Shown here piece by piece: positions 7,882 to 46,582 of a DNA stretch of 46,582 nt. How positions within the stretch are numbered: the first letter of the stretch is position 1; every line of letters begins with the position of its first letter. The position numbers were made by a program, and so were the translations under genes. The notes beneath the pieces were generated by a model that saw nothing but the letters and a program-made list of their open reading frames with translations, ran no database searches and was not told where the DNA came from. The DNA comes from a virus, in IMG/VR virus record IMGVR_UViG_3300032087_002512, positions 1 to 46,582 of that record; one strand, written 5' to 3'.

Positions 7882-8072
7882 GGGTTGTTCGAATCCGTCG
7901 TCTGACGGTCCCTCACTGAGTTAGCACCACCGGGTCCCGTACTACCGGGCTTATTCTTGGTGGTGATCTTCTTGGGCGTACCGCCCGTCTCAGGCTTTTT
8001 CATTGGTTTCTTCTCTTTGTCAGCCATTCTATATAGCTCCTCGTAGTCGGGGCAGTCTTCACAGATTCCCAT
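7878..8072 (-). CDS. Small basic protein, first gene of the leftward arm
   Basis: The protein has 64 residues from ATG 8072, where AGGAGA precedes the start by five bases. A second in-frame ATG at 8024 also has a strong site (GAGGAG, nine bases upstream) and would give a 48-residue form beginning MADKEKKPMKK. The first 16 residues contain a CxxC pair (ICEDC), which only the longer form has. The rest is Lys-, Pro-, Gly- and Thr-rich and probably unstructured. Dual starts are possible. It is the first gene after the proposed leftward promoter at 8361-8398. No family recognised. Confidence 0.7.
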   Translation of the reverse strand: MGICEDCPDYEELYRMADKEKKPMKKPETGGTPKKITTKNKPGSTGPGGANSVRDRQTTDSNNP

Positions 8073-8296
8073 GATGCTCTCCTAAAAGATGGTAGGATGC
8101 CGAAGAAGGGGGCACTCCGACATCCCACCGTGGGGAACACACCCCGGTTTGATTACACCCCTTTATCACGAGCCGTAGCTCGGAGTGTCGGGCACGGACC
8201 TGCACGGGCGTACCACGGAAATAGAGGTCCCTAAGCAGGGCGCGCTCTGAAGTCTTATACTAAGAGTGAGACACATGGGTACTAGGTATCTCTAAC

Positions 8297-8305
8297 TTAT
8301 CCACC
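8297..8305 (+). promoter_or_regulatory. DnaA-box-like sequence
   Basis: TTATCCACC matches the bacterial DnaA box TTATCCACA at eight of nine positions. It is single and lies beside AT-rich sequence in the divergent control region, so it is only a weak hint at an origin. Confidence 0.25.
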
Positions 8306-8360
8306 TCACCGAGTTGGGGGGTCCTTGGTTACTAAGTAGTATGTGGTAAGAAACTCTTAG

Positions 8361-8398
8361 ATACACTAGTATATATCGTGGGAACCCTTGTTTCTTAG
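8361..8398 (-). promoter_or_regulatory. Phage bipartite promoter P3, leftward, for the structural arm
   Basis: Read on the minus strand this is CTAAGA (8398-8393), ten bases, then a 22-base block (8382-8361) containing CACGATATATACTAGTGTA. The block matches the identical 22-mers at 18767 and 20798 at 17 of 22 positions, and CTAAGA is at exactly the same distance in all three. Initiation would be expected near 8361, giving a leader of about 290 bases before the first leftward gene. The match is seen directly; promoter activity and sigma dependence are inferred. Confidence 0.7.
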
Positions 8399-12857: not shown

Positions 12858-13706
12858 ATGGAAAAGATTCCATGCAACCCATCTGTCGGCGCAGATGTTG
12901 AATACCTGCTCATGAACATGGAGACTCGTGAGATCGAACCTGCGTGTGGCCTCATTGGCGGCACAAAGGAGGACCCCTTACTTCTCGAGTCTCCTCGTGG
13001 TGGCGGCTACGCGATACAAGAGGACAACGTGATGGTGGAGTGGAACATCCCTGCGGCAGAGTCGTGGGATGTGCTCTACAACAACATCCTGCACGCCAAG
13101 GACTTGGTGAATGACCACGTACAGTTAGCCGTAGGCCCGGAATACAGGGCGGTCTGTCAGCAAGAGCATCACTTCACTCCGCTTCAGCTAGACTCGGAGC
13201 AAGCGCGTACCTTCGGGTGCGAGCCTGACTTCGATGCCTACCTCGGTGGAGTACAACGGCAGGATGGTGCAGCGGCTACTATCGGTAACTGGCGCACCTG
13301 CGGAGGGCACATACACATCGGTGGTGACTTCCAATGCCCTGACTTTGTTGCTGCTCTATTCTGTGAGCTGTACATCTCAGTGTTCGGGCGCGCCCCGATT
13401 GACTACAGTACACAGAGAGCTAAATGGTACGGGAAGCCGGGGATCTTCCGGCCTAAGCCGTATGGAATCGAGTACCGTACACCGGACAATATGTGGACGG
13501 ATAACCCAAACCATATTGAGCTGGTAGGGCAGTACGCTATACTGTGTGCCCAGTACCTGACCAACACCTCAGCGGATGAGCTACAGTCTACATTCCGCAA
13601 GATACCGTGGGTGCAGATCCGTGGGTACCTCGATGGTACCAAGCGTACTAGCACCACTCGCTCTCACATCATCCGCGCTTGCCGCAATGCAGGAGTCAAC
13701 GCATGA
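12858..13706 (+). CDS. Amidoligase, phiEco32-like COOH-NH2 ligase type 2
   Basis: A 282-residue protein of the glutamine synthetase/amidoligase fold. It has the acidic Mg/ATP motif GADVEYLL near the N-terminus (about residues 11-18), the second motif GGHIHIGGDF (about residues 150-159) and the arginine motif GIEYRTPDNMW (about 205). This order is that of the phage phiEco32-like COOH-NH2 ligases (PF14395). Such enzymes form amide bonds between a carboxylate and an amine using ATP. GGAGG precedes the start by nine bases. The substrate is unknown; peptide tags on proteins or cell-wall peptides have been proposed for the family. Confidence 0.85.
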   Translation: MEKIPCNPSVGADVEYLLMNMETREIEPACGLIGGTKEDPLLLESPRGGGYAIQEDNVMVEWNIPAAESWDVLYNNILHAKDLVNDHVQLAVGPEYRAVCQQEHHFTPLQLDSEQARTFGCEPDFDAYLGGVQRQDGAAATIGNWRTCGGHIHIGGDFQCPDFVAALFCELYISVFGRAPIDYSTQRAKWYGKPGIFRPKPYGIEYRTPDNMWTDNPNHIELVGQYAILCAQYLTNTSADELQSTFRKIPWVQIRGYLDGTKRTSTTRSHIIRACRNAGVNA

Positions 13707-14311
13707 TTAACGTAGATAAGGTTCCCGCTCGTGACTGGAACCTGTACTTCGGTGGAGTGTATATGCAATACAGGGGTACACTTGCATATGTGCGCCCCTA
13801 TGCCTATCAGGACCCAGAGGAAGGGAGGACGCGCACTACACTCCGAGTACAACGAGAGGGGATGAAGGACAAGTTCCTCTGGCGCAAGGGTGACCTCAAG
13901 GAGCTGCTGGTGTGGTGGCCTCGTGCTGGGGCCTACAACATCAGAGGCTCGGCGGTGTACGTGGCACGTAAGGCAACTCGGTCAATGAAGAAGTCCTGTT
14001 GCCCAGACTCTCACTACTACGTGAAGTGGGGAGCGCAGGGGATGAGTCCGGCGCGGTACTTGACCCTGAAGAACCACCACTTCGATACATGGGAGGCCGC
14101 GAAGCAAGCCATAGACAATGGCAAGCACGCTAGGGCACTGTCCCGTAACCTGATCGTGGCCAACTCGGCTGCGAAAGGGGTGTACCAACTGGTCTACCGA
14201 GGTGATGAGGTAGGTACACTGGAGGGGAGTGATTACCACCCACTGAATGAGCTATCACCACTTACAAAGCTGGTGTATCAAGAACTAATAGAGGAGGGAG
14301 TTGTATGCTAA
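13703..14311 (+). CDS. Unknown protein between the two amidoligases
   Basis: A 202-residue protein from ATG 13703 overlapping the previous stop (ATGA) and the next start by seven bases, so it is tightly part of the operon. It starts MINVDKVPARDWNLYFGG and is rich in Tyr, Trp and Arg, with a CC pair (KKSCCPDSHYYVKW) and a helical stretch HFDTWEAAKQAIDNGKHAR. No known domain was recognised. Because it is locked between two ligases, it is a good candidate for a dedicated partner or acceptor of the reaction; this is inference. Confidence 0.75.
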   Translation: MINVDKVPARDWNLYFGGVYMQYRGTLAYVRPYAYQDPEEGRTRTTLRVQREGMKDKFLWRKGDLKELLVWWPRAGAYNIRGSAVYVARKATRSMKKSCCPDSHYYVKWGAQGMSPARYLTLKNHHFDTWEAAKQAIDNGKHARALSRNLIVANSAAKGVYQLVYRGDEVGTLEGSDYHPLNELSPLTKLVYQELIEEGVVC

Positions 14312-15234
14312 ACTGGGACCAGCAAATAGGTCCGATGCTTGGTCTACGTATGCGGTACCCCGAGCTACGGCTTGGGATTGAGCTAGAGTACGAGCGCTAT
14401 CATGGGGACTTCCCAGAGCTAGCGTGGTGGAGTTGTGAACGTGATGCGTCCCTACGGAACGGAGGGGTTGAGTACATTAGCAATCCCCTGCTGCCCGAGG
14501 ATCTCGACGAAGCACTGGACGAGGTACAAGAGTCCATTGACGATAATCAACTCGAGGCCTCGTGGCGGTGCGGAGGGCACACCCACGTGAACGCAATGTA
14601 CTGGACGTTCAAAGAGCTACTCACGTACACTACGCTGTATGCTCTGGTTGAGCCGTATATATTCGGGAACTTTGCTCCGGGTAGGGAGTCTAACCACTTC
14701 TGCGTACCCTTGTGGAGTAACCACCAACTGATTGACAGGCTAGCCCACGATGCGGTGAGGCTGCGCGCTAAGAAGGGAATGGCGCACTCGCTACAGTTGC
14801 TTGGGTGCAACAAGTACTCTGCGCTGAACTTCAAGCCCCTCAAGGTGCTGGGCACAATAGAGTTCAGGCATATACCGAGTACAACGAACATGGCTGTCAT
14901 ACAGAACTGGTGTGCGTTCCTGATGCGTAGTGTGGCGTATGCCAAGACGTTCAGGGACCCAGAGTCGGTAGTTGCGGCATATGAGGACAACGGCATAGAG
15001 AATATGCTGGAGAACCTCGGCCTTCACACGTGTGAGATTGACAGGGAGACTACCAAGGATGCGTACATCGCGGCCAACATGGTGGTAGGACACGACCCGC
15101 GCAAGTGGCAGGACTTGGACTGGACTATGCCAGAACCATTGGAGTGGAGGGATGAATTGCTCGACATCCTAGCGATAGAAGAAGAGTTTGAAATAGAAGA
15201 TTACCACCCAGACTTAGATGAGGAGAGAATGTAA
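14305..15234 (+). CDS. Amidoligase, second COOH-NH2 ligase (Amidoligase_2-like)
   Basis: A 309-residue protein with the amidoligase motifs in order: LGIELEYERY (about residues 19-28), GGHTHVNAMYW (about 90-100) and GTIEFRHIPSTTN (about 188-200). The ExE and HxH plus E-x-R pattern matches the putative amidoligase family (PF12224) and differs from the first ligase, so two different amide bonds or successive steps are likely. The C-terminal 60 residues are acidic. Palindrome site 9 lies inside, encoding HTCE. GGAGG stands upstream of the start. Confidence 0.85.
   Translation: MLNWDQQIGPMLGLRMRYPELRLGIELEYERYHGDFPELAWWSCERDASLRNGGVEYISNPLLPEDLDEALDEVQESIDDNQLEASWRCGGHTHVNAMYWTFKELLTYTTLYALVEPYIFGNFAPGRESNHFCVPLWSNHQLIDRLAHDAVRLRAKKGMAHSLQLLGCNKYSALNFKPLKVLGTIEFRHIPSTTNMAVIQNWCAFLMRSVAYAKTFRDPESVVAAYEDNGIENMLENLGLHTCEIDRETTKDAYIAANMVVGHDPRKWQDLDWTMPEPLEWRDELLDILAIEEEFEIEDYHPDLDEERM
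15024..15035. promoter_or_regulatory. Dispersed palindrome TCACACGTGTGA, site 9
   Basis: Perfect copy inside the second amidoligase gene, read as H-T-C-E. Confidence 0.8.
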
Positions 15235-15235
15235 T

Positions 15236-16684
15236 ATGTGCGGAATAGTAGGATACATTTCAATGAAGGACAGCGACCATGTCCATGCTAAGCGACACTT
15301 CAGTGATTACGCGCTTATGCTTGATACGTTGCGTGGTAACGATTCCACAGGGATCATACGTGTGAACAACGACTTTGATGTTCATACAAACCACACGACC
15401 ATGTCAGGGCGTAAGTACGTTCACTCTGTCGCTTACGACTCGTGGATGGCTGAGCGGGATAGCTGGGCGTTCATCGGGCACAACCGGGCAGCGACTGCCG
15501 GATCAGTGAAGCTCGAGAACGCCCACCCGTTCACATTCGGTGACGTGACGATGGTACATAACGGTACATTGTGGCAGGGCGGCAAGTCCATGCCGGGGTA
15601 CGACCCCAAGCTAGAAGTGGACTCAATGCAGATAGCCCGAGCCCTGTCAGAGACAGACTGTGACGCTGCTGCGGTGTCCAAGCTCTTTGAGAAGATAGAC
15701 GGGAGCTTCTGTCTGGTGTGGGTAGATCGACGGGATGGGTCAGTGAACATGGCTCGTAACTCGTCACGGCCCTTACACTTCGCGTACAACCGCGCCAAGA
15801 ACCTGATGTGGTTCATGTCCGACGGTACACACCTTCATGCAATTTCACGGTCTATGGAGAAGTCCTCGGGTGCGATAGATACTATCTACCAGATGGACAA
15901 GCAGAAGATCCTGAAGTTCAAGAAGGGAAACATGGTACCGGAGGTTACTGGCTTCGTCCCTTTCGTTCGACCCGCAGTCACTTACAATACAGCCACCAAA
16001 GTGGACAGTGGGAAAGCCCTCGCGGTAGCAACACAAAGGTGGCAGGACAACATACGGAAGGCAAATGGGGCACACTCTACGGAGACTGGCACAGATTCTG
16101 GAACTAAGGCCATGATTAACGGCCACCGCCGGATTGTGCCCAAGAATCACATAGATGTGCTGGGCCAGTACTTCGACGTAGATGGGGACACCATACTGAG
16201 GTTCGAGCCGGAGACATGGATGGAGATGGCCAACAAGCAATGTGTTGTGACCGGGCTGTTCTCCCATCCAAAGTGGGGGGACTCAGTGTGGCCAATGACC
16301 CTGTACAACGTACCCCTGGTGATAGTGAACGCTTACTGTGACTATGCGTGGGGTGTGAAGGCTAAAGGAGTAACATCCTGTGGGTCTGACTTCGAGTACG
16401 GGTCGGTGGTGTCCATGCTAGGTGAGCTGTACTGCTACGACTGGCGTACAATATCGCCTGACGAGCAAACTCACACGTGTGAAGAAGAGGTTGAGGAGCT
16501 GGTGGTAGGGCCTGATGAGACTCTGATGGACAAGACAGAGTGTATGCAGTTGATAGCGAAAGGGTGCATACAATGTAACGGAATCATATCGTGGGAGGAT
16601 AGGTCATTCTCCACCATAGTGAACGAAGGTCGGGATGTGCTCTGTCCGGGGTGCTCCGATGAATGGAAGAGGGAGGTAGTATGA
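15236..16684 (+). CDS. Class II glutamine amidotransferase with C-terminal zinc ribbon
   Basis: A 482-residue protein starting MCGIVGYIS, with Cys2 as the N-terminal nucleophile after Met removal, then RGNDSTG, HNRAATAGSVKLENAHPF, HNGTL and EVDS, all hallmarks of Ntn-type GATase II domains (residues 2 to about 230). These release ammonia from glutamine. No synthase domain of the GlmS, PurF or AsnB kind follows. Instead about 170 unassigned residues lead to a C-terminal pair of CxxC motifs (CIQCNG and CPGCSD), a probable zinc ribbon. AGGAGAG precedes ATG 15236 by nine bases. It likely supplies ammonia to, or transfers glutamine-derived groups for, the ligases next to it. Confidence 0.88.
   Translation: MCGIVGYISMKDSDHVHAKRHFSDYALMLDTLRGNDSTGIIRVNNDFDVHTNHTTMSGRKYVHSVAYDSWMAERDSWAFIGHNRAATAGSVKLENAHPFTFGDVTMVHNGTLWQGGKSMPGYDPKLEVDSMQIARALSETDCDAAAVSKLFEKIDGSFCLVWVDRRDGSVNMARNSSRPLHFAYNRAKNLMWFMSDGTHLHAISRSMEKSSGAIDTIYQMDKQKILKFKKGNMVPEVTGFVPFVRPAVTYNTATKVDSGKALAVATQRWQDNIRKANGAHSTETGTDSGTKAMINGHRRIVPKNHIDVLGQYFDVDGDTILRFEPETWMEMANKQCVVTGLFSHPKWGDSVWPMTLYNVPLVIVNAYCDYAWGVKAKGVTSCGSDFEYGSVVSMLGELYCYDWRTISPDEQTHTCEEEVEELVVGPDETLMDKTECMQLIAKGCIQCNGIISWEDRSFSTIVNEGRDVLCPGCSDEWKREVV
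15354..15365. promoter_or_regulatory. One-mismatch variant of the dispersed palindrome
   Basis: TCATACGTGTGA differs from the 12-bp palindrome at one base (T for C). It lies inside the glutamine amidotransferase gene and is read as I-R-V-N, the same frame as most coding copies. It may be a decayed or weak site. Confidence 0.4.
16471..16482. promoter_or_regulatory. Dispersed palindrome TCACACGTGTGA, site 10
   Basis: Perfect copy inside the glutamine amidotransferase gene, read as H-T-C-E. Confidence 0.8.
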
Positions 16685-17475
16685 AGATTAGGTTTGAGCC
16701 ATACAAGCTCAAGTCAAAGAGCTGTCGTGCCATTGCGGATCACCTTGGAGTACTCCGCACTACTCCTAGGCAGGTCCGTAGGCATGGTGACTTTGACGTA
16801 ATCATTAACTGGGGCTCATCTCAGAGGAGGTTCCCAAATGCAAGATACATCAACGATCCAGAAGCCGTGGAACACGCTAGTGATAAGAAAGCCTCTTTTA
16901 AGGTTTTCAAGTGTAGTGGAGTACCATGCCCTGATTGGACAACTGATGCGGCTGTCGCATCTCAGTGGAGAGAAGATGGGCTGGTCATTGTTGCGCGAGT
17001 GCTTCTACGTGCAAACCAAGGACGAGGCATTGTTATTAGTAGTATCGGAAATGGCATCCCGCTCCCGGCTGCGCCACTCTATACTGTGTACAATAAGAAG
17101 GCCGAGGAGTACAGAGTTCACGTCATGGCGGGAGAGGTTATCGACGTGGCTCAGAAGAAAAAGAAGAGGGAGGTAGATAATGAAGAAGTCGATTACCAAA
17201 TACGTAGTTATGATAATGGCTGGGTGTTCTGCCGTGATGGAGTGGACTGTCCTCAGCCTGTACGTGATGCTGCTGTTGCCGCTGTCAGTTGTCTTGGTCT
17301 TGATTTTGGGGCTGTTGATGTTGGCTGGAACCTTAAGCGAGAGTCTGCATTCGTATTTGAGGTCAACACGGCTCCGGGTATTGAGGGGACTACACTCGAG
17401 CGATACAACGAAGGACTGCGAGCTTTACTGCCAGCACTCAGAACTGGACGCTATGCAACGAGGAGAGCACAATGA
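16681..17475 (+). CDS. ATP-grasp ligase
   Basis: A 264-residue ATP-grasp enzyme. The ATP-binding loop lies around residues 110-120 (RANQGRGIVIS), a middle motif is YRVHVMAGEVIDVAQKKKKR, and the metal-binding end is LDFGAVDVGWN followed by FVFEVNTAPGIEG, where the E-x-N residues bind magnesium. Such enzymes (RimK or D-Ala-D-Ala ligase type) make peptide-like bonds through an acyl phosphate. Its ATG overlaps the stop of the amidotransferase gene as ATGA. With the two amidoligases it gives three ATP-dependent amide-forming enzymes in one operon. The substrate is unknown. Confidence 0.88.
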   Translation: MKIRFEPYKLKSKSCRAIADHLGVLRTTPRQVRRHGDFDVIINWGSSQRRFPNARYINDPEAVEHASDKKASFKVFKCSGVPCPDWTTDAAVASQWREDGLVIVARVLLRANQGRGIVISSIGNGIPLPAAPLYTVYNKKAEEYRVHVMAGEVIDVAQKKKKREVDNEEVDYQIRSYDNGWVFCRDGVDCPQPVRDAAVAAVSCLGLDFGAVDVGWNLKRESAFVFEVNTAPGIEGTTLERYNEGLRALLPALRTGRYATRRAQ

Positions 17476-18750: not shown

Positions 18751-18788
18751 CTAAGAAAGTAGGACTCTCAGGATATATACTACTATAG
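18751..18788 (+). promoter_or_regulatory. Phage bipartite promoter P1, before the primase-helicase genes
   Basis: CTAAGA (18751-18756), ten bases, then the 22-base block 18767-18788 containing GGATATATACTACTATAG. The block is identical to that at 20798-20819. AGGAGG overlaps and immediately follows the block and ATG 18799 comes ten bases after it, so the leader would be only about a dozen bases if transcription starts near 18788. This is a strong repeated element; use by the phage sigma factor is inferred. Confidence 0.75.
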
Positions 18789-19614: not shown

Positions 19615-20785
19615 AGACAGGCAAGCCTTCAACACAATCGTCGATCATGTGGAGCGTGACGACTTCAGCGAACAAGGATGGGTCGTATGGACCGGCGTAT
19701 CTGACTACTACGATGCCGATGCCGGTGCAGTCTGTGTTGATGCCGACATCCTCGGGGATAGTATTGCCCGGACGATCATGGCAGATAAACACAAGGACAT
19801 GTTCCGCAATCTCATCAGCGGTCTTGCAGAGCAGGATACATCTCCAGCCAACGTGGTCAGGGACTACCTTGCGACTAAGCGAGAGCTTGTCGGTCAACGC
19901 CTTGCGGCAGCGATACTGGCGGGAGAAGGCACGGACACACTACTTGATGAATACACCGACCTACTGGTACGCGACTCCCTCGACCAAGAAGAGGCAGAAG
20001 AAGCACGAAGAGGGTACTCAGTCATCGACCTCTGTACTGAAGGGTTTGATCCAGCTAACCTTATTCGTGTTAGCCCTGAGTCTCTTAACGAGAGGCTTGG
20101 TGGGGGTGTTAAGCCGGGGCATCACCTGATCCTGTTCGCTCGACCAGAGATGGGCAAGACGATGATGACCATAGAGATGATGGCCGGGTTCGCTCGGCAG
20201 GGGTTGACGGTGCTGTACATAGGTAACGAGGACCCGATAGACGATATCAACATGAGGATAGTGAACAGATTAAGTGGACTCACAAAAGAGAAGGTCATGC
20301 AGGACCCTCAGCTAGCCGATACAACAGTCCGTGAATACGGATACGAGAACATCATTCTCAAGGCACTGGCTCCGGGGTCACCGCGTGAGATAACCTCACT
20401 CATTGAAGAGTACCAACCAGATGTGCTGGTGTTGGACCAGCTCCGCAACCTCAACATGGGTCAGGACAACTACGTGCTGAAACTTGAAGAGGCAGCAACT
20501 GCTGCACGAACGTGGGCCAAACGATACTCTTGCGTGGTGGTGAGTGTAACACAGGCTGGCGACAGTGCCTCGGGCAAGGCGGTACTTGACCTTGGGGACG
20601 TGGACTATTCCAACACCGGCATTCCTGCACAGGCAGACGTGATGATTGGACTTGGGGCAAGCGAGGCACAGCGCAACGCCGGGGAGCTTATGATATCCCT
20701 GCCCAAGAACAAGGTGAGCGGGTGCCACGAGTGGTTCGCATGTACAACTGAGCCACAATTAAGTAAAATACTACCGCTGGGCTAA
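19580..20785 (+). CDS. Replicative DNA helicase (DnaB/gp4 type)
   Basis: A 401-residue RecA-fold helicase. The Walker A loop is ARPEMGKTMMT (about residues 190-200) after the strand HHLILF, and Walker B is VLVLDQLRN. VVVSVTQAGDSASGK fits the later sensor (H4-like) motif. The N-terminal 140 residues are helical. It unwinds DNA at the fork as a hexamer and likely pairs with the separate primase encoded just upstream, overlapping by 35 bases. AGGA precedes ATG by eight bases. Its stop is followed by the P2 promoter element. Confidence 0.92.
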   Translation: MREKHVLSSAIKDRQAFNTIVDHVERDDFSEQGWVVWTGVSDYYDADAGAVCVDADILGDSIARTIMADKHKDMFRNLISGLAEQDTSPANVVRDYLATKRELVGQRLAAAILAGEGTDTLLDEYTDLLVRDSLDQEEAEEARRGYSVIDLCTEGFDPANLIRVSPESLNERLGGGVKPGHHLILFARPEMGKTMMTIEMMAGFARQGLTVLYIGNEDPIDDINMRIVNRLSGLTKEKVMQDPQLADTTVREYGYENIILKALAPGSPREITSLIEEYQPDVLVLDQLRNLNMGQDNYVLKLEEAATAARTWAKRYSCVVVSVTQAGDSASGKAVLDLGDVDYSNTGIPAQADVMIGLGASEAQRNAGELMISLPKNKVSGCHEWFACTTEPQLSKILPLG

Positions 20786-20819
20786 GATATGGGTATGCTC
20801 AGGATATATACTACTATAG
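20782..20819 (+). promoter_or_regulatory. Phage bipartite promoter P2, before the sigma factor gene
   Basis: CTAAGA (20782-20787), ten bases, then the 22-base block 20798-20819, identical to the block of P1. GAGGAG follows at once and ATG 20830 ten bases after the block. The element overlaps the helicase stop codon. Location in front of the phage sigma gene suggests autoregulation. Confidence 0.75.
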
Positions 20820-20829
20820 AGGAGAGTTA

Positions 20830-21300
20830 ATGAGGATTACACAAGAGATCATGGACGTAGTAGAGTCGTTCGAACTGAACGAGGACGCTAAGCAGGACGC
20901 ATACGTCAAGCTGTTGGAGAGTGACCAGAGAGAGTTTGCTAACAACGCTCACCGGGACAACTACATTCGACAGTTGGTCTTCTGGACTCGCAACAACGAG
21001 TCTGCTAAGGAGGACAACAGGGCACGTCTGCTGGAGGAGAATCAGGACCTGATACGTGACCTGTACAACAGTGGCACAGATGAGTTTGCTGAGGACCCGG
21101 CAGCGGTCATCGAAGCAGAGGAGAGGATGGATAACTTCCTCGAGATACTGAGCGACACGTACCGACGTACATTTACAAGACTTTACCTCGATGGACTGAC
21201 GCCACAAGATTTGGCTGACGAGGAGGGAGTGGCAAGGAATGCCATAGATCAACGAGTCCACAACATCAAGTTACTAGTGAAGGAGAATTTTAATGTCTAA
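20830..21300 (+). CDS. ECF-like RNA polymerase sigma factor
   Basis: A 156-residue protein with the two-domain layout of small sigma-70 (ECF) factors. Region 2-like: DAKQDAYVKLLES then DNYIRQLVFWTRNNESAKEDN, with the aromatic patch expected for promoter melting. Region 4-like, a helix-turn-helix: YRRTFTRLYLDGLTPQDLADEEGVARNAIDQR followed by VHNIKLL. It would direct host RNA polymerase to phage promoters. It lies directly after P2, which shares its sequence with P1 and P3, and it overlaps the SSB gene by eight bases. Phage phiEco32 also uses its own ECF-type sigma factor. The match is by eye. Confidence 0.8.
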   Translation: MRITQEIMDVVESFELNEDAKQDAYVKLLESDQREFANNAHRDNYIRQLVFWTRNNESAKEDNRARLLEENQDLIRDLYNSGTDEFAEDPAAVIEAEERMDNFLEILSDTYRRTFTRLYLDGLTPQDLADEEGVARNAIDQRVHNIKLLVKENFNV

Positions 21301-21898
21301 TAAGTATGAAGCGTTTACCACACCGGAAGGTGAAGCTGTATTCCCATGGATCACGAAAGCTGACACCGAGCATGACGCTGCGGGTATCTACCATGTTGAC
21401 CTGAGTGTGCCCTTCGAGGCAGCCCAGGACTTCATTGCAAAGCTTGAGCGCATCCGTGATGAGTTTGTAGCTACACTCCCGGTGGCCAAGCAGAACGCGC
21501 TTGCGAAGAAGCCTGTCTATATGGACGAACTCACGCGGCCCGACTATCCAGAGGGCGCGTCGAAGGAAGAGCGGACAGCCATTCGTAATGCGTGGGCAGG
21601 TGAACCCACCGGCAACGTGATCTTCCGCATCAAGCAGAAGGCGAAGGTTACAACGCAGGAAGGTGTCACGTTCGAGCAAGCTCCAGTTGTGGTCAGTGCT
21701 GACACAGGTGAGAAGATCGAACAGCCAGTGTACGGGGGCAGCATCCTACGTGTACGTGGGCAGGTTGTACCATACACCAACGCTGCGGCAGGTATTGCAG
21801 GGGTCACCTTGCGGATGAAAGCAGTACAGGTCATTGATCTCGTGACGGGTGGAGGAAGTGATTCCTTCTGGACCGACTTCGAAGAAGACGCAGCTTAA
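21293..21898 (+). CDS. Single-stranded DNA-binding protein (gp2.5-like)
   Basis: A 201-residue protein resembling the T7 gp2.5 type of ssDNA-binding protein found in podoviruses. It has a beta-rich OB-like core (AGIYHVDLSVPFEAAQDF, NVIFRIKQKAKVTTQ, GGSILRVRGQVVPYTN) and an acidic C-terminal tail (DSFWTDFEEDAA) with an aromatic residue near the end, typical of recruiting the polymerase and helicase. It lies between the sigma gene and the DNA polymerase gene. AAGGAG stands eight bases before ATG. Its stop overlaps the polymerase start. Confidence 0.85.
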   Translation: MSNKYEAFTTPEGEAVFPWITKADTEHDAAGIYHVDLSVPFEAAQDFIAKLERIRDEFVATLPVAKQNALAKKPVYMDELTRPDYPEGASKEERTAIRNAWAGEPTGNVIFRIKQKAKVTTQEGVTFEQAPVVVSADTGEKIEQPVYGGSILRVRGQVVPYTNAAAGIAGVTLRMKAVQVIDLVTGGGSDSFWTDFEEDAA

Positions 21899-23850
21899 TG
21901 ACTAGGGGGCTACGGGGTCTGCCACAACACGTGGCGGCCCCTGATCCTTCCCTCTACATGGGAGATGATTATGTTGTCGTTGACTTTGAAACAACCACTC
22001 ACCTCAAAGGAACTCCGGTCAGTGATGATAATAGAATCGTCCTTGCCGTGTGGAAGAGAGGTAAAGATACAACCAGCCGTGGAACGGCACTACTTCTCGG
22101 GGAGACCGATAATGTCCCCAGCGGAAGTGATGATTCCATGCGACACTGTTTCGGAGGCGAGTACGATCTTAGCGATCTTGTCAGAGACATTGGACAAGCA
22201 TCTTTCGTGGTCGCACATAACGCTAAGTTTGAACTCGGATGGCTCAGGCGATGCGGACTCGACCTCAGAGACGTAGTTGTATACGACACACAGATCGGTG
22301 ATTATGTACGGGGAGGCAACAGGTACCCACTACAACAGCTCAGCCTCAACAAGACAGCGGAGAGGTACGGGCTAGGACAGAAGCAGGACATTATAGGTAA
22401 GATGTGGGCACACGATATCGAGACTCCAGACATACCGGAGTCGTGGTTGTTACGGTACTGCATTAAGGACGTAGAGCTATGCGAGAGCATCTTCCTCAAA
22501 CAGAGGGAGATACTTAAACATCGTAATCTGCTGCCGGTGCTGTACCAAAGATGCCTAGTTACGCCAATGCTCGCGGACCTCGAACGTCGGGGGATGCAAC
22601 TAGACGAGGACAAAGTTAATGAACTTATGGCAACGATGGAAGATGAGTATGCTGCGAAGACGGCTGAACTCCAAGAGTTTGCTGGAGGTGTCCCACCTGC
22701 TAGCGTTAAGCAGAAACGAGAGTATATTTATGGAGTACTTGGGTTCAAAGCTCCCGTGGATTACAGAAACAAGCCTATCCTCACTCCTTCGGGTGACTTC
22801 TCAGTATCAGCGGACGCTCTTGCTAGACTTCGACCAAAGACTCAAAAGCAACGAGAGTATCTACGTCTCCATGAAGAGTGGGCCAATCTCCACGCCGATG
22901 TCACTAAGTACCTCAGAAAGTTTAGAGAGTGCTGCAACGAGACTGGTGGAGTGCTACACGCAGCATTTAACCAATGTAGTACACGCACACATCGACTCTC
23001 TAGTAATGGAGTCACCTACAAGGTTCAGTTCCAGAATCTTAACCGAAGGTTCAAGCCACTTTTTCGTTCACGTAACGATGGCTGGTATCTCGGGGAGGCC
23101 GATGGTGCACAGCTCGAGTTCAGAGTTGCAGCACACCTTGGACGTGACCGAGTGGCGCTTGGCGACATCTGGAGAGGGGTTGATATCCACGCTTTCACAG
23201 CAGGGATTATCGGCTGCACGAGACAGGAGGCTAAGGCACACACCTTCAAGCCTCTGTATGGTGGTAAGTCCGGCACTCCTGAGCAGAAGCGGTATTACAG
23301 CGCTTTTGAGAAGAAGTATTCGGGAGTATCTGGCACACAACGTGAATGGGTGCATGGGGTACTACGTACCAAGAACCTCAAGACAGAGTGGGGACTGACG
23401 TACTACTGGCCATCGACCAAGATGACAGAGAGTGGGTACATCACCAACACCACGTCCATTTGCAACTATCCAGTACAGGCGTTAGCGACTGCGGAAATCA
23501 TTCCGAGTGCAATGGTCTGCGCGTGGCATAGGATGCGAGACATGCAGTCGTTCCTTGTGAACACAGTACATGACTCGATCATCGCAGAGATACACCCGGA
23601 CGAGGCTGAACTGTGGCACGAGATAGCGAAGCAATGTTTGATTCACGATGCGTACATGATGATGGTGAATCTGTACGGCCTACACCTCACCGTACCCCTC
23701 GGGGCTGGTGTGATGATGGGTACACATTGGGGATCGAAAGACGAAGTGAAGTACGAGGCACCGGAAGAGCTATGGCTCCCGGCTGCACGCAAAGAGGAGA
23801 TGGTAGATGAAGACATGGACTGGCAAGGTAATCAAGAAGTTCCATCGTGA
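21898..23850 (+). CDS. DNA polymerase, family A, with 3'-5' exonuclease
   Basis: A 650-residue T7-type polymerase. Exonuclease motifs: YVVVDFETTTHL (Exo I), HNAKFELGWL (Exo II) and YCIKDVELCE (Exo III). Polymerase motifs: EADGAQLEFRVAAH (motif A), KAHTFKPLYGGKSGT (motif B) and NTVHDSIIAE (motif C, with the catalytic Asp). Both activities look intact. It replicates the genome with the helicase, primase and SSB of the same operon. The start ATG overlaps the SSB stop as TAATG; the first 25 residues are non-conserved, so a later start is possible. Confidence 0.95.
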   Translation: MTRGLRGLPQHVAAPDPSLYMGDDYVVVDFETTTHLKGTPVSDDNRIVLAVWKRGKDTTSRGTALLLGETDNVPSGSDDSMRHCFGGEYDLSDLVRDIGQASFVVAHNAKFELGWLRRCGLDLRDVVVYDTQIGDYVRGGNRYPLQQLSLNKTAERYGLGQKQDIIGKMWAHDIETPDIPESWLLRYCIKDVELCESIFLKQREILKHRNLLPVLYQRCLVTPMLADLERRGMQLDEDKVNELMATMEDEYAAKTAELQEFAGGVPPASVKQKREYIYGVLGFKAPVDYRNKPILTPSGDFSVSADALARLRPKTQKQREYLRLHEEWANLHADVTKYLRKFRECCNETGGVLHAAFNQCSTRTHRLSSNGVTYKVQFQNLNRRFKPLFRSRNDGWYLGEADGAQLEFRVAAHLGRDRVALGDIWRGVDIHAFTAGIIGCTRQEAKAHTFKPLYGGKSGTPEQKRYYSAFEKKYSGVSGTQREWVHGVLRTKNLKTEWGLTYYWPSTKMTESGYITNTTSICNYPVQALATAEIIPSAMVCAWHRMRDMQSFLVNTVHDSIIAEIHPDEAELWHEIAKQCLIHDAYMMMVNLYGLHLTVPLGAGVMMGTHWGSKDEVKYEAPEELWLPAARKEEMVDEDMDWQGNQEVPS

Positions 23851-28930: not shown

Positions 28931-29344
28931 CTATACTTGATCCTTTCGCTTCAGTGCGTCAACAATGGGAAGCACAGACTTCTCAACCGAGCGACCAACA
29001 ACGTATCCTCCGAGCCCGAGCTGAAGCAGAGTCCAAGCCTCGGGTGCGAGACGGAAAGCTAGTTGGCCTGTTTGGTCAAGAACCACCAAGGCTAAAAATG
29101 TAAGCATAGTAATGGGTCGCCACGTAGCAGTCAGCCAGTGTTCAGACTTGGCTTCGGCTTCTATGATGGCGGCCCTTTGCTTTAGGTTCTCTTTCTCGTA
29201 AGCAATGCCCGCCTCAATAGCACCGACGTACGTGTTCAACGTACTGGCCTTGTGTGCTAGCTTCTCCTCTTCCGAGGTATGAAGTTCATCTATAAGCTCA
29301 ACCGCTGGCTTAAAGATTCCTCTAATCAATTCAAATACATTCAT
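28931..29344 (-). CDS. Holin, 3-TM superfamily
   Basis: A 137-residue protein matching the phage 3-TM holin family: an N-terminal amphipathic part (MNVFELIRGIFKPAVELIDE), a charged helical linker, the signature WLTATWRPITMLTFLALVVL, and a second hydrophobic stretch (TLLQLGLGGYVVGRS). It would permeabilise the inner membrane at lysis. It is the last gene of the leftward arm and is adjacent, tail-to-tail, to the last rightward gene. Confidence 0.85.
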   Translation of the reverse strand: MNVFELIRGIFKPAVELIDELHTSEEEKLAHKASTLNTYVGAIEAGIAYEKENLKQRAAIIEAEAKSEHWLTATWRPITMLTFLALVVLDQTGQLAFRLAPEAWTLLQLGLGGYVVGRSVEKSVLPIVDALKRKDQV

Positions 29345-45729: not shown

Positions 45730-46557
45730 TTAATCACGGACATTGCCTGAAGCCAAAGCCCTACGATAACCGGCAGCATTACGCTTAACCCATTCCTCGG
45801 CATCTAAATCACCTTGCTTAGAGCGAGTGAGCTTAGCGACGTACTCCTGTCTGGAGAACCTCGGTGGCTCAGTCACCATTTCACCGCTCGACTGAACGAG
45901 TTCGGCTTGCTCGATGCTTTGCTGCTGTTGGACTAGGGACATACCTTTTTCGGCCTTGTAGAGACGGAACAGTGCATCCGCAGCGCTAAAGTCGTATTCG
46001 TTCCCTCGAGTCCAAAGATTGACTCGGGTGGGATCATCAACGACCCAATTCTGGAACTCAGGCTGTGAGGCCAGTTGCTCGTAGTCTGGGTGGCGTTCAC
46101 GGAAGGCGTTAGCTTCACGGTCACGAGCATCCGACTCGTATTGCTTCTGTATATTCCTCGCTTCCTGAATTGCAGGGTGCGCGTCAACCGCACGTTGTAG
46201 TGCGGCATTTGGGTCCTCGTAGAGATCGTCAACAGTGATTGGCTGGTAACTCTCTTGAGGCGATGGCTCTTCGTTGGGTGTAGGGTCCTTCACAATGAAA
46301 TCATCAATGAGCTTACGTTGCTGTCCAAGCGTCTGAGCCTGTCGGCTGTTTAGCTTTTCCAGCTCCTTGTAGCGCGTCTCCCAATCAGTAGATGGTGTAG
46401 CGTCAGGAACAAACTGGCCCGTCGCCGGGTCCCTTGGTTGCTCTTGCCGCGCCTCCTGCTGTTGCGCTGCGTCATTAATGTTCGCTGAGAGGGGGTCCCC
46501 TCCTCGGTTCGGATCGGCGCAAGTTTTACCGTAGTGGGTGAATCCGCTGCGGGCCAC
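45730..46557 (-). CDS. Scaffolding protein, main part (start shown here is an artefact)
   Basis: The frame from 46467 to 45730 encodes 245 residues that continue the 29 codons at 1-87, a complete scaffold of about 274 residues. It is acidic and Gln-rich (QQQEARQEQPRDPATGQFV), with a coiled stretch (RYKELEKLNSRQAQTLGQQR) and a helical, basic C-terminus (KRNAAGYRRALASGNVRD) that would bind capsid. It lies directly upstream of the capsid gene. The apparent N-terminus at this end (46519-46557, beginning MARSGFTHYGKTC from a GTG without a ribosome-binding site) is not native. Confidence 0.8.
   Translation of the reverse strand: MARSGFTHYGKTCADPNRGGDPLSANINDAAQQQEARQEQPRDPATGQFVPDATPSTDWETRYKELEKLNSRQAQTLGQQRKLIDDFIVKDPTPNEEPSPQESYQPITVDDLYEDPNAALQRAVDAHPAIQEARNIQKQYESDARDREANAFRERHPDYEQLASQPEFQNWVVDDPTRVNLWTRGNEYDFSAADALFRLYKAEKGMSLVQQQQSIEQAELVQSSGEMVTEPPRFSRQEYVAKLTRSKQGDLDAEEWVKRNAAGYRRALASGNVRD
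46468..46518. repeat. Contig-end direct repeat, copy 2
   Basis: These 51 bases are identical to bases 1-51. Closing the circle here joins 46467 to 1 and restores the scaffold gene with its proper start. Confidence 0.9.
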
Positions 46558-46582
46558 GGCTGGAACCAGACATTAGAGGCGG
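46519..46582. other. Non-continuing contig tail
   Basis: The last 64 bases follow the repeat but do not match the sequence after copy 1 (52 onward). They contain no supported gene element. They may be a misassembled end, a minor population variant or foreign sequence. Confidence 0.7.

Follow-up and report, generated by a model that had tools for sequence, protein, structure and literature searches.

The stretch of viral DNA analysed here, termed the window (46,582 nucleotides; IMG/VR record IMGVR_UViG_3300032087_002512), carries an open reading frame for a 156-residue protein, which is flanked by replication genes in the order helicase–sigma–SSB (single-strand binding protein)–PolA. The opposed late arm, located on the minus strand, appears to run on past the contig junction to position 28931. 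The two contig ends have 51 nt in common (1–51; 46468–46582), followed by an unrelated tail of 64 nt, and the gene encoding MAKIEDYLPGG... stays in frame over the junction 1/46467. Because of these shared ends and the reading frame over the junction, we regard a circularly permuted genome map of about 46,467 bp as probable. Searching the genome collection for a host yielded only two distant metagenome-derived contigs. The features of the window are summarised in Table 1.

Table 1 Genes, candidate promoters and further features of the window.
Feature	Position	Strand	Evidence or motif
Late arm, first part (portal, terminase, others), proposed to be read from P3	1..8072	-	
P3, candidate promoter, divergent region, ~290 nt upstream of first late gene	8361-8398	-	CTAAGA-N16-ATATATACTA
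Peptide-ligase cassette (COOH-NH2 ligase, amidoligase, glutamine-fructose-6-phosphate aminotransferase-like, S6 glutaminyl transferase)	12858-17475		
P1, candidate promoter before primase gene	18751-18788	+	CTAAGA-N16-ATATATACTA
DNA primase gene, downstream of P1	18799..19614	+	PHROG 8.4e-12
DnaB-like helicase gene, between P1 and P2	19580..20785	+	PHROG 9.1e-40
P2, candidate promoter before sigma gene	20782-20819	+	CTAAGA-N16-ATATATACTA
ECF-like sigma factor, 156 aa, ATG start	20830..21300	+	Pfam, PHROG, clade profile, AlphaFold/Foldseek
Sigma region 4.2 recognition helix, ~ residues 136-153; specificity residue Q141	within ORF 20830-21300		
gp2.5-like single-strand binding protein (SSB), downstream of sigma	21293..21898	+	PHROG 1.5e-21
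DNA polymerase (PolA family)	21898..23850	+	PHROG 5.2e-82

A T7-type RNA polymerase (PF00940) was absent from the window and from the relatives searched, while the T7 control was found at 1e-110, in agreement with an earlier note on this DNA, which had reported no single-subunit RNA polymerase. The same note had presented the sigma factor as a replacement for the T7 enzyme; the absence of the polymerase is borne out, but a replacement in the historical sense is not, as no ancestor with such a polymerase is evident. Zobellviridae have likewise been described as lacking an RNA polymerase and having to regulate differently, with phiEco32 cited as a pointer (PMC9960094).

To characterise the 156-residue protein we combined sequence profiles with structure prediction. 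A single-sequence Pfam search gave a match to sigma region 4 (PF08281) with an E-value of 1.1e-5 and 25.4 bits, 0.3 bits below the curated cut-off of 25.7, and the PHROG sigma factor family covered nearly the full protein (E 1.8e-5). Region 2 was not detected by Pfam in the window protein as a single sequence; it becomes visible in the relatives, where L007 reached 24.3 bits against a cut-off of 24 and both the ECF sigma and the region 2 models score, and PF08281 was matched by 19 of 21 members. A profile of 13 syntenic sigmas, the window protein and 12 others, aligned from region 2 to region 4 with solved ECF sigmas in the PDB (E 1.6e-8), and adding wider relatives gave an E-value of 4e-17 against ECF sigmas of known structure. 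Thus, of the region 2- and region 4-like segments proposed in the earlier note, region 4 stands for the window protein by itself, whereas region 2 emerges in the relatives and in the family profile alignments, which span it and cover both sigma domains.

The AlphaFold model of the protein was all-helical with a pLDDT of 81 and a pTM of 0.53, and its best Foldseek matches were ECF sigmas at a probability of ~1.0, though with a modest E-value of 6e-3. Region 4 of the model superposes on SigL with an rmsd of 1.9 over 70 residues, whereas the full-length superposition gave an rmsd near 20, the relative placement of the domains being unreliable. The profile alignments indicate a two-domain layout only, in which sigma2 and sigma4 account for the model without regions 1.1 and 3, and the N-terminal helix of the window protein is short. 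With the profile comparison against sigma families and the structure comparison both returning ECF sigmas, the former over both domains, the open reading frame is almost certainly that of an ECF-type sigma factor, as had been surmised from the sequence.

The motif CTAAGA-N16-ATATATACTA occurs at three sites in the window without a mismatch, and no others were found at up to three mismatches. The shuffle expectation was 0.09 at up to three mismatches, and none of 100 shuffles reached three; the motif having been derived from its three copies, this comparison addresses its exclusivity more than its discovery. The stretches of 53 nt that precede the primase and the sigma gene are similar to each other, and P3 is directed at the minus-strand arm with the portal and terminase genes. 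A non-coding leader of ~290 nt (8072–8361) separates P3 from the first late gene.

As a single query, the window sigma yielded no matches in phages or in IMG/VR. Its relatives were reached through PolA and helicase searches instead, which retrieved a clade of uncultivated phages from IMG/VR. Fourteen clade contigs carry a divergent sigma homologue in the slot between helicase and SSB/PolA, with ~19–32% identity to the window sigma, and in most of the clade the protein measures 145–170 aa. The cultured relatives by PolA are the Zobellviridae VpV262 and Vibrio 1.015.O, together with the Stenotrophomonas phage StenR_269; in VpV262 and two Vibrio phages examined, no sigma is annotated in the helicase–PolA slot. 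A more distant relative (L001, 6657–7193) encodes an ECF sigma of the classical kind, 178 aa long and scoring clearly, which stands before the primase and not behind the helicase.

We next used the 60 nt that precede each sigma gene as a query for the best ungapped matches genome-wide on both strands. In five genomes, namely the window, G001, G004, G005 and G007, the next-best matches fell ahead of the primase, on the minus strand within the divergent region, or at both places; G006 and G008, which are partial contigs, yielded the primase copy. The triad is present in four relatives of the window, each with its own sequence variant and with one primase copy assigned by eye, namely P1 of G004, which differs from its P2 in the unbiased search. 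The G007 triad scores near shuffle level, with its positions as expected. Across all five genomes P3 lies ~170–340 nt upstream of the first late gene. Promoter copies are alike within one genome and unlike between genomes. When the P2 copies were permuted against P1 over seven genomes, the true assignment ranked first among 5040; against P3 over five genomes it ranked first among 120. The promoter sequence of the window itself was absent from the relatives, the layout and the general form being what they have in common. The arrangement outlined in the earlier note, with P1 at the primase, P2 at the sigma gene and P3 at the late arm, is thereby found as an exact triad in the window and recurs with co-varying sequences in its relatives.

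The divergence of the promoters is mirrored in the protein. Among 14 genomes, position 3 of the −35 element is A in seven (mostly TAAGAA) and C in seven (mostly TCAGAA). The residue corresponding to position 141 of the window protein is K in all seven C genomes and in none of the seven A genomes, which exhibit Q, A or T. It is the sole fully separating column among 145 columns (827 residue tests), with a Fisher p-value of 0.0006 that is uncorrected for these 827 tests, and the next-ranked columns include 144, 145 and 137 of the same recognition helix as well as 121 outside of it. Permuting the labels yielded a perfect column anywhere in the protein in 40 of 3432 assignments and within the helix in 6, while a concentration in the helix as strong as the real one arose in 2 of 3432.

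By eye and post hoc we fixed the registers of the promoters, settled on −35 position 3 and labelled L009 and L018. L009 at first looked like an exception to the K/C rule, with TAAGAA in its P1, and was re-registered by the constant spacing to CCCAC, giving GTCCAAA in both copies. Because this re-registering was post hoc, we repeated the test without L009 and L018 and obtained 4 of 924 assignments both for a perfect helix column and for the helix concentration. L122 was omitted, its promoter having resisted placement. On a tree built from the helicase, SSB and PolA proteins, with the sigma excluded, each trait changes at least four times and always in concert with the other. The best tree holds four independent pairs, and a tree-aware sign test cannot reach significance because only two of these are on strongly supported branches.

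In the profile alignment, residues 140–142 correspond to R171-S172-R173 of E. coli sigma-E and residues 144–145 to F175-R176 (numbering allowing for a three-residue tag), residues which form part of its −35-reading helix. An outside check that had played no part in forming the rule came from gp47 of Salmonella phage 7-11, which has N, V, S and H at window positions 137, 141, 142 and 144. With N137, H144 and no K141 it resembles the TAA-type members of the clade; these three positions are as expected of the A type, and position 3 of its −35 element GTAAtg is indeed A. In this lineage of uncultivated phages, each genome probably owns a private sigma/promoter pair, with its three promoters and its sigma diverging together, and residue 141 would act as a simple −35 switch (K with TCAGAA, any other residue with TAAGAA) that has flipped four times or more.

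The 7-11 protein is also the nearest studied analogue of the window sigma. SaPh711_gp47 is a working sigma that uses the host core polymerase at mapped promoters of the form GTAAtg-(16)-aCTA (PMC8948821). Both are short ECF-like sigmas with region 4 and bipartite promoters, and the alignment of gp47 to the clade profile covers 129 columns and both domains including region 4 (hhalign probability 95.5, E 1.4e-8). Nevertheless, phage 7-11 belongs to a different family, Grimontviridae, and its eight promoters are all late with none listed before its own sigma gene, in contrast to P2 of the window. The window motif is similar in form to the 7-11 promoter and yet distinct: the distance from the −35 hexamer is 16 nt for aCTA in 7-11 and 22 nt for ACTA in the window, and the 7-11 motif gave 26 near matches in the window against 31.6 expected, hence no enrichment.

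The earlier note had drawn its parallel to phiEco32, which likewise combines an ECF-like sigma, by which the host polymerase is redirected towards middle and late genes, with opposed gene clusters and no RNA polymerase of its own. The phiEco32-like peptide ligases named there are indeed found, as a cassette, in the window, and a similar cassette is also present in PA11, CW02 and CVT22. As the closest counterpart, however, phiEco32 has to give way to 7-11, with a profile match probability of only 16.9 for gp36 against the 95.5 of gp47. gp36 is devoid of region 4 and uses the single-element promoter tAATGTAtA (PMC8948821, PMC4281155), a motif with 4 near matches in the window against 5.2 expected.

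Three Zobellviridae, PA11, CW02 and CVT22, have annotated sigma genes between primase/helicase and PolA, and the window resembles them in this sigma slot, in the peptide-ligase cassette and in its two opposed arms. CW02 gp21 matched the clade profile with a probability of 92. The tests run did not find the P1/P2/P3 triad in these three phages, and unlike in the window, the sigma genes of PA11 and CVT22 are preceded by no notable intergenic gap. Towards cellular ECF sigmas such as E. coli sigma-E and M. tuberculosis SigL, the likeness lies in the sigma2–sigma4 architecture with alignment over both domains. The differences lie in the length of 145–170 aa typical of the clade, in the shortened N-terminal helix of the window protein, in the surroundings of the window gene, where no membrane signalling context was seen, and in the −35 motif, which in cellular ECF sigmas is of the GGAAC type. 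Many but not all ECF sigmas have a gene for a cognate anti-sigma close by; the window gene is surrounded by replication genes.

The properties of the repeats and of the protein also bear on three other readings of the locus. The repeats may be promoters for the primary sigma of the host, with TATACT as −10 element, or for a host ECF sigma, with the phage protein acting elsewhere. All three copies do carry TATACT, one mismatch from TATAAT; however, P1–P3 show a conserved phage-specific −35 instead of a TTGACA-like one. The promoter version is moreover specific to each genome and common to that genome's own sites, and its −35 base tracks the recognition helix of the phage protein, so that recognition by a host sigma appears improbable. 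We also regard it as unlikely, to a similar degree, that the protein is a sigma-descended two-domain regulator, an activator or a Q-like factor, recruiting or modifying the host holoenzyme at P1–P3. The weak region 2 and the appearance of Pfam Phage_antitermQ as a weak secondary match in several relatives would suit such a regulator, but the relatives score with ECF sigma and region 2 models, the profile alignment covers both sigma domains, and the −35/−10 spacing of the element is that of a sigma promoter. In addition, gp47 of 7-11, aligned over most of the protein, is a working sigma (PMC8948821).

A role of the repeats as translation or replication elements that stand before start codons by chance would agree with P1 and P2, which stop ~10 nt short of a start codon and directly adjoin the ribosome-binding region. 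It is at odds with P3, which faces the other strand at a distance of ~290 nt to the first late gene, a location conserved in four relatives, and we consider this reading very improbable.

As to the preferred reading, we hold it highly probable that an ECF-type sigma directs the host core RNA polymerase to three phage promoters, and P1–P3 are very likely read by the phage sigma. Early genes would presumably be transcribed by the host's own holoenzyme, although a search of the divergent region for consensus sigma-70 promoters gave none, and the first sigma would be made by read-through. Joined to the host core RNA polymerase, it would then recognise the three promoters with their −35 CTAAGA, 16-nt gap and AT-rich −10, amplifying its own expression via P2, raising the replication genes via P1 and opening the late arm via P3. 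Autoregulation and late activation are suggested by the anatomy of the genome and the covariation, and we infer core binding, the time order and the positive feedback. Because the protein and the promoter signals change together across relatives, the data suggest that the virus steers the host transcription enzyme to its own genes by a private code.

The mechanism as such is already established by phiEco32 gp36 and 7-11 gp47; the new part is the co-diverging promoter triad with its recognition-helix switch. The papers searched, among which few subscription journals were covered, describe no promoters for any Zobellviridae sigma, no co-varying residue and no triad. If true, these phages would present a code in nature from which −35 recognition by ECF-type sigmas can be read, and offer a possible account of how replication and late genes are switched in phages without their own RNA polymerase. 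Such a natural series of diverged sigma–promoter pairs could provide −35 recognition rules and orthogonal expression tools, and transcription maps of uncultivated phages could become predictable from sequence alone.

A second repeat family is found in the early arm, where 13 exact TCACACGTGTGA palindromes are located (window 8799–28806, plus strand), with none in the late arm. As targets of the sigma these palindromes were ruled out, being symmetric, confined to the early arm and placed differently. The same 12-mer occurs in G004 (11 copies), G005 (4) and G007 (4), and other versions are present in G009 (TTAGTACGTACTAA, 14 copies) and G010 (GTTGTACGTACAAC, 9 copies). These early-arm palindromes look like operators of an early regulator.
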